DNA of 64,000 nt from Flavobacterium palustre (lineage in GTDB: Bacteria; Bacteroidota; Bacteroidia; Flavobacteriales; Flavobacteriaceae): NCBI RefSeq assembly GCF_014639535.1, contig NZ_BMGA01000002.1, positions 124,001-188,000 of the forward strand, given 5' to 3'. The position numbers and the translations under genes are program-made. Positions 20,245-37,067 of this stretch are shown one piece after another. Below the pieces are notes generated by a model. It was not told where the DNA came from, ran no database searches, and was given only the letters and a program-made list of their open reading frames with translations. Position 1 is the first letter of the stretch. The number at the start of each line of letters is the position of its first letter.

Positions 20245-21093
20245 ATGTTGTCTTTGATATTGAGTGTTATTTGTAGTGTGGCTGTAGGGGTAATTTTTAA
20301 AATAGCCCGAAAAACTACTGCCAATGCAAAGCAAATAGTATTGTTTAATTACTTTTTTGCATTATTACTCTGTTATGTTATTTTTTCTCCTGATGTACAA
20401 ACAATCACTGCGGGAGCTCCAGTTTTGCTGTATGTAAGTTTGGGGATTTTATTGCCTGTGGTCTTTTTGTTTTTAATTGCTTCCATCAAAAATATCGGAA
20501 TTGTAAAGACGGATGCAGCTCAAAGATTGTCGTTATTCGTTTCGATTGTAGCGGCCTGGTTGTTCTTTAATGAAGTGTTTTCGGTTAATAAGCTAATCGG
20601 AATTACTATTGGATTTTTAGCTTTGTTTTGTGTTTTGAATAAAACCGCTGATTCAGATAAGTCTAATTTTAAATACCCGGTTTTGGTGTTTTTGGGCTTT
20701 GGAATTATTGATGTTTTATTCAAAAAAGTAGCTGCTTTTACAACAGTTCCTTATACTACTTCGTTGTTTGTTATTTTTTGTATTGCTTTCTTTCTTATGT
20801 TTTTGGTTGTGTTGTATGAAGTAATAATCCAAAAGAAAGGATTTGAAATTAAAAATATGACTTTCGGTTTCTTGGTGGGCTGTTTTAATTTTGGAAATAT
20901 CTTATTTTATTTAAAAGCACACCAGGCTTTCTCCGCAAATCCATCCACTGTTTTTGCAGGTATGAACATGGGAGTTATTCTGTTGGGAAGTATAGTAGGT
21001 GTGATTGTCTTCAAAGAAAAACTATCGAAATTGAATTATACAGGATTGGTTTTAGCCCTTTTTTCGATATTGTTTATTGTTCTTTCTGTTTAG
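20245..21093 (+). CDS. DMT/EamA-type membrane permease
   Basis: From the ATG at 20245 the protein is 282 residues; an in-frame TTG 18 bases upstream is less likely because hydrophobic sequence starts at [15 protein letters not shown]. It is nearly all hydrophobic with about ten membrane segments in two similar halves, as in drug/metabolite transporters. The second half ends with [24 protein letters not shown], the usual EamA-like last helices. The substrate is unknown. Its 3' end overlaps the convergent RimB-RimK gene by 20 bases. Confidence 0.75.
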
Positions 21094-22462
21094 ATGTTCC
21101 ATCTAATTTGAAATTCTTTTCAATAGCTTTAATCATTTCTCCGGCGATGTCTTTATTGGTTGCAGTTTCGATTCCTTCCAGTCCGGGAGAAGAGTTTACT
21201 TCGAGTAATAAAGGTCCTTTTGTGGAACGGATAATGTCTACTCCGGCTACTTTTAAATCCATTGCTTTTGCTGCTTTGATGGCAATTTTTTTCTCCTCAG
21301 AAGTTGCTTTTATAATCGAAGCTGTTCCGCCAAGATGAATGTTAGCTCTAAATTCGCCGGGCATCGCCTCACGCTGAATGGTGGCTACTACTTTTCCATC
21401 AACTACAAACAGACGCAGGTCTTTTCCGTTGGCTTCTTTGATAAATTCCTGAACCAGAATATTTGCATTTAAACTTTTGAAAGCGTTAATAACACTTTCG
21501 GCAGCTTTTTTTGTTTCGGCTAATACGACTCCTTTTCCCTGAGTTCCTTCTAATAATTTTACAACCAATGGAGGACCGCCTACCATTTTGATTAAATCAT
21601 CAGTATCTAGCGGCGAATTGGCAAAACCGGTTGTTGGGATTCCAATTCCGCTATGAAGCAGTAATTGTAAAGAAAAGAGTTTGTCTCTGGATTGGGTAAT
21701 AGCGGTTGAAGAGTTTAGACAAAATACATTCAAAGCCTCAAATTGACGTGTTAAAGCACAACCATAAAAGGTAACGCTTGGACGGATTCTGGGAATGATA
21801 GCGTCAAATTCATTCAGGATTTTTCCGCCGCGATAATGAATTTCGGGTTTTTTAGCGTCTAATTTAATGTAACATTCTTTGATGTTTAAGAAGTGCATTT
21901 CGTGACCACGCATTTCTCCGGCTTCCATGATTCTTTTGTTACTGTATAATTCAGGATTGCTTGCTAATAGACCAATGCGTAATCCGCTAGGTGCTTTTTC
22001 TGAATTTTTGTAGATTTCTTTTAGATTGTCATTGCTTGGTTGTCCCAGTAAGAATTGCTGTTCGGGATCAACTAAAAGTCTTCCGCTCATGGCTTCGCGA
22101 CCCAGCAACATTCTAAACCCCATAGTGTCTCTATTGGTTAGTGTTACTTCAATAGGCCAGATAGTATCTCCAATTTTAAGGTTAGTTTGAACAACATAAC
22201 GTTGCTCTCTAAAACCGCTGGAACTTTTTACTATTCGCTTGTCTATCAAAGGAGCTTCACAATGAATAATTGTTTTGGAGTTGTTTTGGATAGGATTAAT
22301 ATCAAATTTGACCCAATTCGTTTCGTTTTTGATAAATGGAGCGATATTGATAGCATGCAGGGCAGAGGTTTTTGCCCCCGAATCTACTCTGGCTTTTATT
22401 GTTGGAATTCCTAATTCAGGAAAAGAACACCATTCTTCGCTACCTACGACAACTTTATTCAT
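21074..22462 (-). CDS. Fusion of RimB-like retropepsin-type protease domain with RimK-like ATP-grasp ligase
   Basis: The 462-residue protein has two parts. Residues 1-145 are the ATP-dependent zinc protease (RimB-like) domain, with the aspartic-protease-like [12 protein letters not shown] and [15 protein letters not shown]. Residues about 160-450 are a RimK ATP-grasp ligase, with [57 protein letters not shown] and [14 protein letters not shown]. RimK adds glutamates to ribosomal protein S6 in proteobacteria and RimB is reported to act against it. Fusion puts the opposing activities on one chain. The true target in this organism is not known. Confidence 0.85.
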
Positions 22463-22549
22463 TGTTATTTTTTATTGAAATTTAGACTGATTTGTTAAAC
22501 GCCAAAAGTAGTTATTTGTTATTTAAAAAAAAGGAAATCGTGTTAAAAG

Positions 22550-22586
22550 AATAAACCCGTTAGGTTATGAAAACGTAACGGGTTTT
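22550..22586 (-). terminator. 37-bp hairpin repeat, copy 1, terminator of the cyclase-like gene
   Basis: AAACCCGTTA and TAACGGGTTT pair around a short loop with a T run. The whole 37 bases are identical to 23664-23700 on the other side of the next gene, in direct orientation. Confidence 0.8.
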
Positions 22587-22599
22587 ATTAAAAAATTTA

Positions 22600-23643
22600 T
22601 TATTCAGGTTTTTTTAGGGTTTCTAAAACTTCATTTAAATCATCAATTAACGGTATATGTGTGTTTAAAAAGAAAGGATATATTGTTTCGTTAATTGTTT
22701 CAAGTTCGGGAGTGTCATTTTTTAAGAATCCTAAAAAACCTTCTGAAAAACTATTATTTAGATAGCTTTTATTTTCGATTAAATTAATAATCTCTGGAAA
22801 GAGTTGTAAATTACCAGCCGGTATTGTATTGATTTCTCTAAAATAATATTTCTTTCTAAACAGTGTTACTTCGTTTAAATTTGAGATTGTGTATTTTGCG
22901 TAATTTGAAAAAGGTTTTTCGGTTTTTCCGTTAAAAACATCATCGATGTCTCTATCATAAATGAATTTAAGTAGTCCAATAGCACGTTTACAATAAGGAT
23001 TACCTCCTGCAATTTTTGCTACATTGTTTTCTAAATAACATTTATTACCTTCAAAACCATATTTGCTTCCCATTTCATTTACTTTGTAAGCATTTGAGAA
23101 GCTGAAATTAGCTGAAAAATAATCTTCTTTTTTATCTTTATTTCTGATGAACTTGTATCTCATACCAGAAGATATGACAGAACGACAACCGGGCATGTGT
23201 ATTTGTGATTCTTTATCATTAATATAATTATGAATTCTAGATACTATACCAATAAATTGACATAATTCAAAAGATAAATTTGAAAAGTGATTCTCGATTT
23301 CTTCTGATGATTTAGATTTTTTGGTGAGTAATCTATTTAGTGGTCCAAATGTTTGTCCTTGGTCTGGTTTTCCGATTGCTGGTAAAAAATCAGATTCAAT
23401 GTCCATTCCTAGAATTAATGCGTCATTAAATCTGGAAATACGAAAAGATTTAGAGAAAAATTGTGGGTTTTTAGATTGAGCAGTTTCAGTTAAATCTAAT
23501 GCTTCTTCTAATATTTTTAATCTTTCAATTGCTTCTTTTCCAATTTTAGTTCTAACATCATAGCTTGAAATTTCTAAGTGACTAGAAAATCCTAATAAAT
23601 CAATAAAAGCAGATATAGAGTAGATGTTATTCTTGTCTTCCAT
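22600..23643 (-). CDS. Orphan protein with class III nucleotidyl-cyclase-like motifs
   Basis: This 347-residue protein is not a known named family to me. Residues 13-20 (FIDLLGFS) match the first strand of class III cyclases, with the metal Asp15 followed by GF(S/T). Residues 72-78 (FNDALIL) match the second metal Asp74, and RSVISSGMRYKF near 156 matches the GIAxG strand. The rest is helical and polar, without membrane segments. It lies between two identical 37-bp hairpins and next to clpC with no obvious partner. It may make a cyclic nucleotide signal, as Pycsar cyclases do, but no effector gene is adjacent. The cyclase relation is a motif-level inference. Confidence 0.55.
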   Translation of the reverse strand: MEDKNNIYSISAFIDLLGFSSHLEISSYDVRTKIGKEAIERLKILEEALDLTETAQSKNPQFFSKSFRISRFNDALILGMDIESDFLPAIGKPDQGQTFGPLNRLLTKKSKSSEEIENHFSNLSFELCQFIGIVSRIHNYINDKESQIHMPGCRSVISSGMRYKFIRNKDKKEDYFSANFSFSNAYKVNEMGSKYGFEGNKCYLENNVAKIAGGNPYCKRAIGLLKFIYDRDIDDVFNGKTEKPFSNYAKYTISNLNEVTLFRKKYYFREINTIPAGNLQLFPEIINLIENKSYLNNSFSEGFLGFLKNDTPELETINETIYPFFLNTHIPLIDDLNEVLETLKKPE

Positions 23644-23663
23644 GTTTTTTAATATTAATCATA

Positions 23664-23700
23664 AATAAACCCGTTAGGTTATGAAAACGTAACGGGTTTT
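23664..23700 (-). terminator. 37-bp hairpin repeat, copy 2, terminator of clpC
   Basis: This is identical to 22550-22586. Its arms are AAACCCGTTA and TAACGGGTTT with a T tract, and it lies 24 bases past the clpC stop codon. Confidence 0.85.
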
Positions 23701-23723
23701 TGTTGTATTATGAGGGCTTTCGA

Positions 23724-26273
23724 TTATAAATTGGTAGCCTCTCCGGTTTTGTGAATCTTTACTGTTAATTCTTGAGAACCGTCTTCGATATCCATGAAAA
23801 TTTCATCTCCGGTGCCTATTTTTGAAGTGATGATTTCTTCGGCAAGTGCGTCTTCAACATATTTTTGAATCGCTCTTTTTAGAGGTCTTGCTCCAAATTG
23901 TTTGTCAAAACCTTTCTCTGCAATAAATGCTTTGGCTTTATCAGAAAGATTCAAATTGTATCCTAATTCAGCAATTCGGGCATATAGTTTTTTCAATTCG
24001 ATTTCGATAATCAAATCGATATCGCTTTTTTCTAAAGCATTGAAAACAATTACATCGTCAATTCTGTTTAAGAATTCAGGAGCAAATGTTTTCTTCAAAG
24101 CGTTTTCGATAATACTTTTCGAATTATCATCTGCCTGAGCTACTTTGGCTGCAGTTCCAAATCCTACTCCTTGTCCAAAATCTTTTAATTGTCTGGCTCC
24201 AACATTTGAAGTCATGATAATTATAGTGTTTTTGAAGTCAATTTTGCGACCTAAACTGTCAGTTAAGAAACCATCGTCTAGCACTTGTAATAACATGTTG
24301 AAAACATCCGGATGTGCTTTTTCAATCTCATCTAAAAGTACAACTGCGTATGGTTTTCTGCGTACTTTTTCGGTTAATTGTCCGCCTTCTTCGTATCCGA
24401 CATATCCCGGAGGAGCACCAATTAAACGGGAAATAGCAAATTTTTCCATGTATTCACTCATGTCAATACGTACTAAGGCATCTTCAGAATCAAATAATTC
24501 TTTCGCTAAAACTTTCGCTAATTGTGTTTTTCCAACTCCTGTTTGACCTAAGAAAATAAACGAACCAATTGGTCGGTTTGGATCTTTCAATCCGGCACGG
24601 TTTCTTTGGATAGAACGGGCAATTTTAACAACAGCCTCTTTTTGACCAATAACTTTACTTTCGATAAGTTCCGGTAGTTTAGCTAATTTGTTGCTTTCTG
24701 TTTGTGCAATACGGTTCACTGGAATTCCTGTCATCATCGAAACTACATCGGCAACATTGTCTTCAGTTACCTGAATTCTATTGCTTTTAGCATCTTCTTC
24801 CCATTGTTCCTGAGCAACGGCTAAGTCTTTTTCGATACGTTTTTCGTCATCGCGAAGTTTAGCAGCTTCCTCGTATTTTTGTTTTTTAACTACGGCATTT
24901 TTTAGTTCTCTGATTTCTTCTAATTGACGTTCCAGGTCAAGAATCTTTTTAGGAACTTCAATGTTAGTAATATGTACACGTGAACCTGCTTCGTCCATTG
25001 CATCAATAGCTTTGTCCGGTAAAAAACGCTCCGACATATATCGATTAGTTAATTTTACACAAGCCTCAATAGCTTCAGGAGTGTAAGTAACATTGTGGTG
25101 GTCTTCGTATTTGTTTTTAACATTATTCAAAATGGTAATTGTTTCTTCTACCGAAGTAGGTTCTACAATAATTTTTTGAAAACGTCTTTCAAGAGCACCG
25201 TCTTTTTCAATATACTGTCTGTATTCATCTAAGGTTGTAGCACCAATACATTGGATTTCACCTCTTGCTAAAGCCGGTTTGAACATGTTGGAAGCGTCAA
25301 GTGAACCTGTGGCTCCACCTGCACCTACAATAGTGTGGATTTCGTCAATGAAAAGAATGATGTCATCATTTTTTTCTAATTCGTTCATCACGGCTTTCAT
25401 ACGTTCTTCAAATTGTCCACGGTATTTTGTGCCGGCAACTAAACTGGCTAAATCTAAGGTAACAACACGTTTGTTGAATAAGATTCGGGAAACTTTCTTT
25501 TGGATAATTCGCAAAGCCAAACCTTCGGCAATAGCAGATTTTCCAACTCCGGGTTCACCAATTAATAATGGGTTGTTTTTTTTGCGACGACTTAAAATTT
25601 GACAAACACGTTCAATTTCTTTTTCGCGTCCTACAACAGGATCCAGTTTGCCTTCTTCGGCCATGTCTGTTAAATCTCTACCAAAGTTATCTAAAACAGG
25701 GGTTTTTGATTTTTTGTTAGACTTATTAGCAGGATTGTTGAAATTGCCTTCTTTTAAACTGTCATCTTGTCCTAAATCGTCATTGTAAGAGTCTGTAGCT
25801 CTTGGTAAGTTTTCTAAGAATTCTTCTTCGCTTGGTGTCATATTTAGATATTGTTCTTTGGCTACGTCGTAATCTATTTTAAGTTTATTCAATAGCTTGG
25901 TTGTAGGGTCATTTTCGTTTCTTAAAATACATAGTAATAGGTGTGCAGTACTGACTGACGGACTTTGGAAAACTTTGGCTTCCAGAAAAGTTGTCTTCAG
26001 TGCACGCTCGGCCTGGCGGGTCAAATGCAGGTTTTTCTTTTCTAAATTACTATCTATTCCTGGGATTGCAGGGCTTAGGATTTCTACCTTTCGTCGTAAA
26101 TGATCGAGGTCAATAGATAAACTGTTTAATATCTGTATCGCTTTACCATTACCATCTCTAAGGATACCAAGCATCAAGTGTTCTGTCCCAATGAAGTCAT
26201 GACCTAGTCGTAAAGCTTCTTCTTTACTATAGGTAATAACATCTTTTACCCTTGGTGAAAAATTATCATCCAT
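23724..26273 (-). CDS. clpC: ATP-dependent Clp protease ATP-binding subunit ClpC
   Basis: The 849-residue protein is a class I Hsp100. It has a Clp N-domain repeat pair (residues 1-145), AAA+ domain 1 with GEPGVGKSAIAEG near 236, a UVR-like linker (EEAAKLRDDEKRIEKDL, near 475), and AAA+ domain 2 with GQTGVGKTQLAK near 565 and MSEYMEKFAISRLIGAPPGYVG. It unfolds proteins for ClpP and contains the mid-sequence coiled coil expected of ClpC. The short C-terminus SQELTVKIHKTGEATNL is normal. Its upstream region shares an 11-mer with dnaK. Confidence 0.95.
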   Translation of the reverse strand: MDDNFSPRVKDVITYSKEEALRLGHDFIGTEHLMLGILRDGNGKAIQILNSLSIDLDHLRRKVEILSPAIPGIDSNLEKKNLHLTRQAERALKTTFLEAKVFQSPSVSTAHLLLCILRNENDPTTKLLNKLKIDYDVAKEQYLNMTPSEEEFLENLPRATDSYNDDLGQDDSLKEGNFNNPANKSNKKSKTPVLDNFGRDLTDMAEEGKLDPVVGREKEIERVCQILSRRKKNNPLLIGEPGVGKSAIAEGLALRIIQKKVSRILFNKRVVTLDLASLVAGTKYRGQFEERMKAVMNELEKNDDIILFIDEIHTIVGAGGATGSLDASNMFKPALARGEIQCIGATTLDEYRQYIEKDGALERRFQKIIVEPTSVEETITILNNVKNKYEDHHNVTYTPEAIEACVKLTNRYMSERFLPDKAIDAMDEAGSRVHITNIEVPKKILDLERQLEEIRELKNAVVKKQKYEEAAKLRDDEKRIEKDLAVAQEQWEEDAKSNRIQVTEDNVADVVSMMTGIPVNRIAQTESNKLAKLPELIESKVIGQKEAVVKIARSIQRNRAGLKDPNRPIGSFIFLGQTGVGKTQLAKVLAKELFDSEDALVRIDMSEYMEKFAISRLIGAPPGYVGYEEGGQLTEKVRRKPYAVVLLDEIEKAHPDVFNMLLQVLDDGFLTDSLGRKIDFKNTIIIMTSNVGARQLKDFGQGVGFGTAAKVAQADDNSKSIIENALKKTFAPEFLNRIDDVIVFNALEKSDIDLIIEIELKKLYARIAELGYNLNLSDKAKAFIAEKGFDKQFGARPLKRAIQKYVEDALAEEIITSKIGTGDEIFMDIEDGSQELTVKIHKTGEATNL

Positions 26274-35823: not shown

Positions 35824-36213
35824 TTACTCTGGAATTTTTTCAATCAGAATAGGATTTTCTGTGCTGTCATAATAAGTACAGGTCATTTCGATGATATCTA
35901 CACGCCATTTGGCAATACCACATTGGGCTGCATGTTGGCAAAAAGTAAAATAGTCTGTCTGTCCGTCTTGGTGCATGACCAGATATTCAATAAAGCGTTC
36001 TTTATTTGCTGAAGATGCGATAGTGATTGCGTCGTATTTTTTGTCGGTGCTGGCAGCAAAATCATTGTCACCATAATAGGAAACACTACCATCGGTCACG
36101 ATGGTGTCATAGCCTTTTACGCCCAGTTGGATAAGGTCTTGAATGTAATTAGGGAAATCAGCACCTGATTTTACTTTTTCATGTGCTGCTTTAATCTGGT
36201 CTATTGAAAACAT
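35824..36213 (-). CDS. DUF1398 family protein
   Basis: The 129-residue protein matches the DUF1398 (YbcV-like) family: IDQIKAAHEKVKSGADFPNYIQDL at the start, LGVKGYDTIVTDGSVSYYGDND in the middle, QTDYFTFCQHAAQCGIAKWRVD and MTCTYYD near the end. The function of the family is unknown. It is cytoplasmic, with no signal or membrane segment. Its 36-base upstream region is almost the same as that of the next gene on the minus strand. Confidence 0.82.
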   Translation of the reverse strand: MFSIDQIKAAHEKVKSGADFPNYIQDLIQLGVKGYDTIVTDGSVSYYGDNDFAASTDKKYDAITIASSANKERFIEYLVMHQDGQTDYFTFCQHAAQCGIAKWRVDIIEMTCTYYDSTENPILIEKIPE

Positions 36214-36246
36214 ATTTTAATTTTTTAGGTTTTCAAATATAGGTTA
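36211..36246 (-). promoter_or_regulatory. Upstream region of DUF1398 gene, near-copy of 37000-37035
   Basis: The 36 bases ending at the start codon match 37000-37035 at 34 positions. On the minus strand this copy contains TATATTTG (a TAnnTTTG box, plus-strand 36242-36235 region), while the other copy has it mutated. Confidence 0.6.
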
Positions 36247-36279
36247 AAAATTAAATGTGGTTTCTGTTTTTTGCCTTTT

Positions 36280-37002
36280 TTAGTGTTTGTATTTGCGGTT
36301 TAATAAAATCAATTTTAGTTTGATATTGTCATAAATCAAGCCGATAATTAGTGTCACAGCAGCAATAAACAATAGCTGTAGTTTTAGTTTGGTGTACAAA
36401 ATGCCTGCTAAAATTCCTCCAATGAAAAAGAAACTTATTATGGTTAATCGCAGTTTGATGGAAGCAAATAGTTTTGTTCTCTTTTCTGTTTCTTTGTAGA
36501 AAAATAACTGTGAAAGTTCAATTCCTAAATCGGTAAAAAGACCTGTTAAGTGAGTTGTTCGTACAGTTGCATTAGAAATTTTTGTCACCAACGAATTTTG
36601 TAATCCCATGGCAAATAATAAAGTGTAAGCAATAATATTTGGATTTTTAGTTATTAAATTTTGACCAGATAATCCAATCATGAACAATAACAGGATTTCT
36701 ATTGATGTGGGAAAAACATAAATGTTTCTTTCTGTTTTTCTGGAAAAGAGCTCAATTAAAAAGCCAGAAGTAAACGAACCCATGAAAAAGAAAAAGATGT
36801 ATAAAAAATAGACAAATCCGTTGTTAAAATTCAATTTAAAAAGTTCGTCCAGAAAGTAGGCAAAATGTCCGGTGACGTTGGTGGTTAATTTTTGAACCGC
36901 TAAAAATCCGGATACATTTACTATTCCTGCTACAAAGGATAATAAAGAAGCAATTTGTAAATTATGACTTAAAGTTCTATGTTTTCCCTGATGTCGAAAC
37001 AT
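36280..37002 (-). CDS. DUF1275 (YoaK-like) membrane protein
   Basis: The 240-residue protein has about six membrane segments. It carries the DUF1275 motifs LLSFVAGIVNVSGFLAV, TNVTGHFAYF and MGLQNSLVTKISNATVRTTHLTGLFTDLG. Function is unknown. It starts right after a region nearly identical to the one before the DUF1398 gene, and lies upstream of it on the same strand with 66 bases between. Confidence 0.82.
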   Translation of the reverse strand: MFRHQGKHRTLSHNLQIASLLSFVAGIVNVSGFLAVQKLTTNVTGHFAYFLDELFKLNFNNGFVYFLYIFFFFMGSFTSGFLIELFSRKTERNIYVFPTSIEILLLFMIGLSGQNLITKNPNIIAYTLLFAMGLQNSLVTKISNATVRTTHLTGLFTDLGIELSQLFFYKETEKRTKLFASIKLRLTIISFFFIGGILAGILYTKLKLQLLFIAAVTLIIGLIYDNIKLKLILLNRKYKH

Positions 37003-37067
37003 ATTTTAATTTTTTAGGTTTTTAATTATAGGTTATAATGGAATAAATTAGATGTCTATCTTTTGTA

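Follow-up and report, generated by a model that had tools for sequence, protein, structure and literature searches.

A class III cyclase-like gene between two copies of the clpC end-hairpin in Flavobacterium palustre, with a history apart from that of its flanks

The window considered here, a stretch of 64,000 nucleotides of Flavobacterium palustre, contains a single gene for a class III cyclase-like protein, placed between two identical copies of a hairpin behind a gene which we take to be clpC, the name given in the original prediction (made from the letters of the window alone). The elements of the locus, with the grounds for each, are:

22600..23643, minus strand: gene for a 347-residue class III cyclase-like protein, single-gene insert (open reading frame (ORF) list, family model, predicted fold)
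23664..23700, minus strand: hairpin copy 1, 3′ of clpC, the start codon of the insert gene lying 20 nt further on (exact repeat, fold)
22550..22586, minus strand: hairpin copy 2, between the insert gene and the rimK-like gene (exact repeat, fold)
22503..22552, minus strand: 50-bp stretch that adjoins hairpin copy 2 in front of the rimK-like gene and is closer to F. pokkalii than to the other relatives compared (sequence comparison with relatives)
23724..26273, minus strand: clpC, resident gene with the duplicated end-hairpin (ORF list, empty-site comparison)
21074..22462, minus strand: rimK-like gene with Zn_protease and RimK ATP-grasp domains, resident right neighbour (Pfam)

The repeated hairpin and the gene between its copies

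That a perfect direct repeat of 37 bases flanks a single gene had been predicted, and the two copies (22550-22586 and 23664-23700) are indeed identical and in the same orientation. The 33-bp hairpin core, with up to 3 mismatches allowed, occurs at these 2 places only in the 3.97-Mb genome, the reversed control giving 0, and among the 14 direct-repeat pairs of at least 22 bp spaced 0.3-6 kb apart in 480 kb of the contig, the hairpin pair is the longer of the 2 that lie outside ORFs. Each copy folds into a 10-bp stem and a 3-bp inner stem (approximately -15 kcal/mol). The hairpin character of the predicted ‘terminator-type’ elements is thus borne out, while the terminator rule (loop 3-8) lists 0 sites in 22400-23800, so that the label ‘terminator’ rests on the position and shape of the hairpin.

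The cyclase-like gene is the only ORF of at least 80 residues in the insert, and its GC content is 28.1% vs 33.8% in a sample of the contig. A scan for sigma-70-type promoters gave 10 matches vs 7.0 ± 2.8 in shuffled sequences, which is near background for a consensus that may not be that of the host; promoters of Bacteroidetes follow a consensus other than the sigma-70 type, so the scan says little.

Empty sites and a second carrier

Among 299 genomes of the genus, of which 253 are at least 90% complete, the protein has a match at E 0.001 in one, namely the source genome itself, and 298 are without. The hairpin, with up to 3 mismatches of 33, is found in 55 of the 299, in two copies in the source genome and in one copy in each of the other 54. 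Twenty sites, taken from these 54 genomes with the hairpin and hence not at random, were inspected downstream of clpC: in 20/20 a single hairpin separates clpC from the rimK-like gene, without any match to the insert gene. The duplicated hairpin consequently consists of the resident clpC end-hairpin and one extra copy, as the original prediction had proposed when it took one copy for the natural end of clpC and the arrangement for an insertion or duplication at that point. The conservation of the clpC end-hairpin, loop included, in 55/299 genomes is perhaps beyond the needs of a plain terminator. The idea that the hairpin is a hot spot was examined with a palindrome pattern, which matched 98/299 genomes, with two close copies in the source genome, two matches each on different contigs and with different loops in G075, G154, G245 and G281, and two each, among the matches listed, in G209 and G244; no second cargo gene at the hairpin was found among the genomes listed in this search.

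A scan of genome contigs, which extends no further than close relatives (39 stretches, 1 relative), returned one further carrier, Flavobacterium pokkalii (NZ_NASZ01000019.1), which places among the genomes of the genus in the tree. Its copy occupies the same site between two hairpins, one of them with a single change, and these are the only two hairpin copies in that genome. The two species are 97.0% identical in the insert gene, 89.3% in clpC and 82.4% in the rimK-like gene; at fourfold-degenerate sites the differences are 5/98, 118/298 and 84/162, respectively, and the synonymous divergence (dS) of the insert gene, 0.088 over 303 codons, amounts to roughly one eighth of the clpC value (0.685). 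In the joint clpC and rimK-like tree, built with 20 of the 21 loci L012-L032 (L019, with its clpC match in two pieces, was omitted), the window pairs with L015 (support 0.997), whereas F. pokkalii groups with L013 and L018 (1.000); none of these three partners has the insert gene. Vertical inheritance of the insert gene was rejected, its dS being far below that of clpC and the carriers not being sisters in the tree. For the same reasons an old vertical gene, repeatedly lost by the clean deletion that a 37-bp direct repeat is generally known to permit, can hardly account for the locus, even if the closest relatives compared are empty. From the sequence comparison, the gene seems to have reached both species horizontally and apart from its flanks, either between these lineages or from a third one.

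The extent of the exchanged DNA can be sketched from the breakpoints. On the left side the likeness to F. pokkalii stops at hairpin 1. On the right side, the 50 bases past hairpin 2 differ from those of F. pokkalii at 3 positions, fewer than in any other of the 21 pairs formed by seven relatives (the next having 6), while F. pokkalii differs from L013 and L018 at 10 and 11 positions in the same bases; beyond them the likeness drops. The stretch 22503..22552 therefore probably belongs to the transferred tract, and an exchange of donor DNA that was anchored on the left by the conserved hairpin and reached into the region upstream of the rimK-like gene would agree with this pattern, which is suggestive only.

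The protein and its relatives

The predicted class III cyclase-like metal motifs were recovered as Asp 15 in FIDLLGF and Asp 74 in FNDALIL. In the modelled structure, of moderate confidence, the order of the elements is cyclase-like, the core spans approximately residues 1-215, and D15 and D74 take the positions expected for class III metal ligands. Both outcomes that the original prediction had named as its refutation, a gene and hairpin pair conserved at the locus across the genus and a predicted fold unlike that of cyclases, are contradicted by the empty sites and by this model. All 50 structural matches listed have the class III catalytic-domain fold, at 6-15% identity, by alignment only. 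Sequence searches in the Protein Data Bank (PDB) gave no cyclase among the matches listed; Ika8 and Tako8 (E 5e-6 to 7e-5) match a short stretch only and were taken as chance.

Searches with the protein found no match at E 0.01 in the plasmid and phage collections, where plasmids at E 10 gave two weak places only, and no viral relative came up in scans that used either the protein by itself or alignment A1. In 394 genomes of the order, strong matches were confined to the source genome and G388, so that the subfamily is rare; the doubtful match in G847 covers 67 columns of the C-terminal part and was taken as chance. The G388 locus, L033, is a remote relative with 28% identity. The genome searches also gave L035, L051 and L052, more ordinary cyclase-like proteins, with which 22 viral loci were then found. 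Only L033 and L035 were kept of the loci L033-L044; the ten dropped include L036 (which resembles a glutamyl-tRNA reductase), L037, L040 and L044, with E near 1e-5 in a tiny, uncorrected comparison. Neither L053, which is broken by a stop and has cyclase-like motifs, nor L054 was used. Alignment A4 holds 16 of the 22 viral loci, L065, L066 and L069 being duplicates and L073, L079 and L082 having been omitted because they start late or carry long additional segments.

D15 and D74 are invariant in 17/17 aligned rows (the window protein and the 16 viral ones), with a spacing of 59 in the window protein and of 45-65 across the rows. The 16-row viral model built without the window protein scores it at 19.2 bits (E 2e-5), while neither the background ORFs, of which 423 were extracted, nor 200 shuffled sequences exceed 6.4 bits; the same model gives L033 only 5.7 bits, so that the link of L033 rests on the window protein. 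A profile-profile comparison of the window protein and L033 with the 16 viral rows gives P 5.7e-7 over residues 1-224. The 16 viral rows also match PHROG 23933, of unknown function, and share both Asp with the window protein, which itself has no match to it at E 0.01. PF00211 matches 2/17 rows weakly (best E 0.005), and the PADLOC matches among the 17 rows are two weak ones, to NsnC (E 0.008) and to JetB (E 0.017). The 347-residue protein is a probable nucleotide cyclase with a predicted class III core.

In 19 viral loci inspected by eye no common neighbour was recognized except a ParA-like gene in three, and a Pfam scan of neighbours covered five ORFs only; this would fit accessory cargo. In L070:2912-4627, L071:2931-4687 and L072:496-2297 the cyclase-like gene stands directly behind a ParA/AAA_31-like gene (by Pfam in L070, by eye in the others), a pair that is a possible two-gene unit. 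In L068:2020-4738 a TIR-domain gene is followed by the cyclase-like gene approximately 1.2 kb behind on the same strand, and in L076:505-2558 the cyclase-like gene lies between what look like HsdS and HsdM genes of restriction-modification.

Origin and possible function of the insert

The hairpin is duplicated, relatives have an empty site with one hairpin, and the insert gene has a history apart from its flanks. Beyond this, we favour, with some reserve, the reading that a single, promoter-poor gene entered the genome at the conserved hairpin 3′ of clpC, leaving one hairpin on each side, and that it encodes a probable cyclase serving an accessory signal. It would have moved between species within donor DNA, recombining on the left side at the conserved hairpin and on the right side at either the hairpin or the region upstream of the rimK-like gene. 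Because it starts 20 nt behind hairpin 1, the gene probably owes its transcription to read-through from clpC and would have a terminator of its own in hairpin 2. The predicted cyclase core would most likely make a cyclic nucleotide, perhaps as an anti-phage signal. Past selection on the protein is suggested by a ratio of non-synonymous to synonymous divergence (dN/dS) of approximately 0.17 (0.015/0.088) between the two copies, over the 303 codons before the frame loss in F. pokkalii.

Several observations weigh against this reading. The F. pokkalii copy is damaged, with D15N at the first metal Asp and the frame lost near codon 303, and the insert gene may thus be dispensable. The tree of the rimK-like gene alone joins the window with L026 (support 0.164) instead of L015, still apart from F. 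pokkalii, and the evidence for the transferred tract consists of few sites. As for the protein, no family in Pfam, PADLOC, PHROGs or NCBIfam names it: the best Pfam match, at E 0.2, is under the cut-off of that collection and PF00211 is unmatched up to E 10, the best of PHROGs is at E 0.14, NCBIfam has none, and PADLOC, the filters of which drop most weak matches, has no family up to E 10. The mean predicted local distance difference test (pLDDT) score is only 60, with residues 92-108 and 224-336 below 50, and the structure prediction used an alignment of the cyclase-like family itself. The RG pair of 15/17 rows is RS in the window protein, and no effector gene adjoins the insert, the neighbours being clpC and the rimK-like gene, both present at 20/20 empty sites as well.

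Some of these points would also suit a protein that has the cyclase fold but is not a cyclase, for example a regulator or sensor that binds nucleotides, or a relic with weak catalysis. Two Asp are by themselves no proof of activity, and the RS pair, the insert of approximately 40 residues that the alignment places between strand 3 and helix 3, the low-confidence C-terminal part and the absence of D15 in F. pokkalii all point the same way; the retention of both metal Asp in the window protein and throughout the 17 rows, as well as the dN/dS value, speaks against this alternative, which is judged rather unlikely.

A site-specific mobile element or integron-like cassette, in which a circle of gene plus hairpin is inserted by a recombinase acting in trans at the hairpin as attachment site, would explain the identical hairpin-to-hairpin boundaries in two species, and a promoter-poor gene followed by a hairpin recalls integron cassettes. 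It is nevertheless improbable: the insert has no ORF of at least 80 residues besides the cyclase-like gene, each carrier genome has just two hairpin copies, no second cargo is found at the hairpin among the genomes listed, and the shared tract seems to run approximately 50 bp past hairpin 2. As to integron traits, the ORF list shows no recombinase in the insert, the genome not having been searched for an integrase.

Insertion at the clpC hairpin, as preferred here, gives an arrangement of a known kind, since repeat-flanked variable segments have already been reported: according to Touzain et al. 2010 (PMC2884548), 10-18% of the variable segments within species are flanked by repeats, mostly shorter than 30 bp. 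Like those segments, the window insert is short, present or absent among relatives and bounded by a direct repeat at both ends; unlike them, its repeat measures 37 bp, forms a hairpin and delimits one unit in two species.

With the class III adenylyl/guanylyl cyclase domain (PF00211; Rv1264, Rv1625c, soluble guanylate cyclase) the window protein has in common the predicted fold and two metal Asp, and differs from it in the Asp spacing of 59, the insert of approximately 40 residues and the extra C-terminal part. In the Pycsar systems described in PMC11224242, the products of the class III cyclases are cUMP or cCMP, and the enzymes work together with a receptor protein. PycC shares with the window protein the class III core, predicted for the latter, and its two metal Asp, and a Phe two residues before the first Asp is common to the window protein, EaPycC and AnPycC. 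The Asp spacing given there is 44 in both EaPycC and AnPycC vs 59 in the window protein, which also differs from PycC at other specificity positions (S70, F72 and I77). The Pycsar cyclase adjoins the gene of a cyclic-nucleotide effector, whereas the window gene is without such a neighbour; no PycC entry stands among the 50 structural matches listed, which excludes nothing. The original prediction had suggested a module of cyclic-nucleotide signalling or defence. As a best guess, the insert would encode an accessory signalling enzyme, possibly anti-phage, the responder of which is unlinked or missing.

The locus offers a clean case of a single gene that two non-sister species carry at one and the same intergenic site and whose history differs from that of the genes around it, the hairpin, which many genomes of the genus share, is a concrete anchor that could explain this, and both product and target of a class III cyclase-like group filed under unknown function in PHROGs are directly testable. 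It would be a long shot to generalize that conserved terminator hairpins are landing and exchange points through which promoter-poor single genes, carrying their own hairpin, move from species to species as ready-made transcription units, and that the orphan cyclase, as one such cargo, represents a new class III clade with an unlinked effector.

A second repeat-flanked gene is found in the window at 36208-37022, where a DUF1275 gene (36280-37002, minus strand) has on either side a 26-bp copy of the leader plus start codon of the DUF1398 gene (35824-36213). In three relatives (G051, G031 and G005) the DUF1398 gene is preceded by a single, nearly identical copy of the leader, and DUF1275 is without a match, while in G074, G045 and G613 the DUF1398 and DUF1275 genes are both present in different places.
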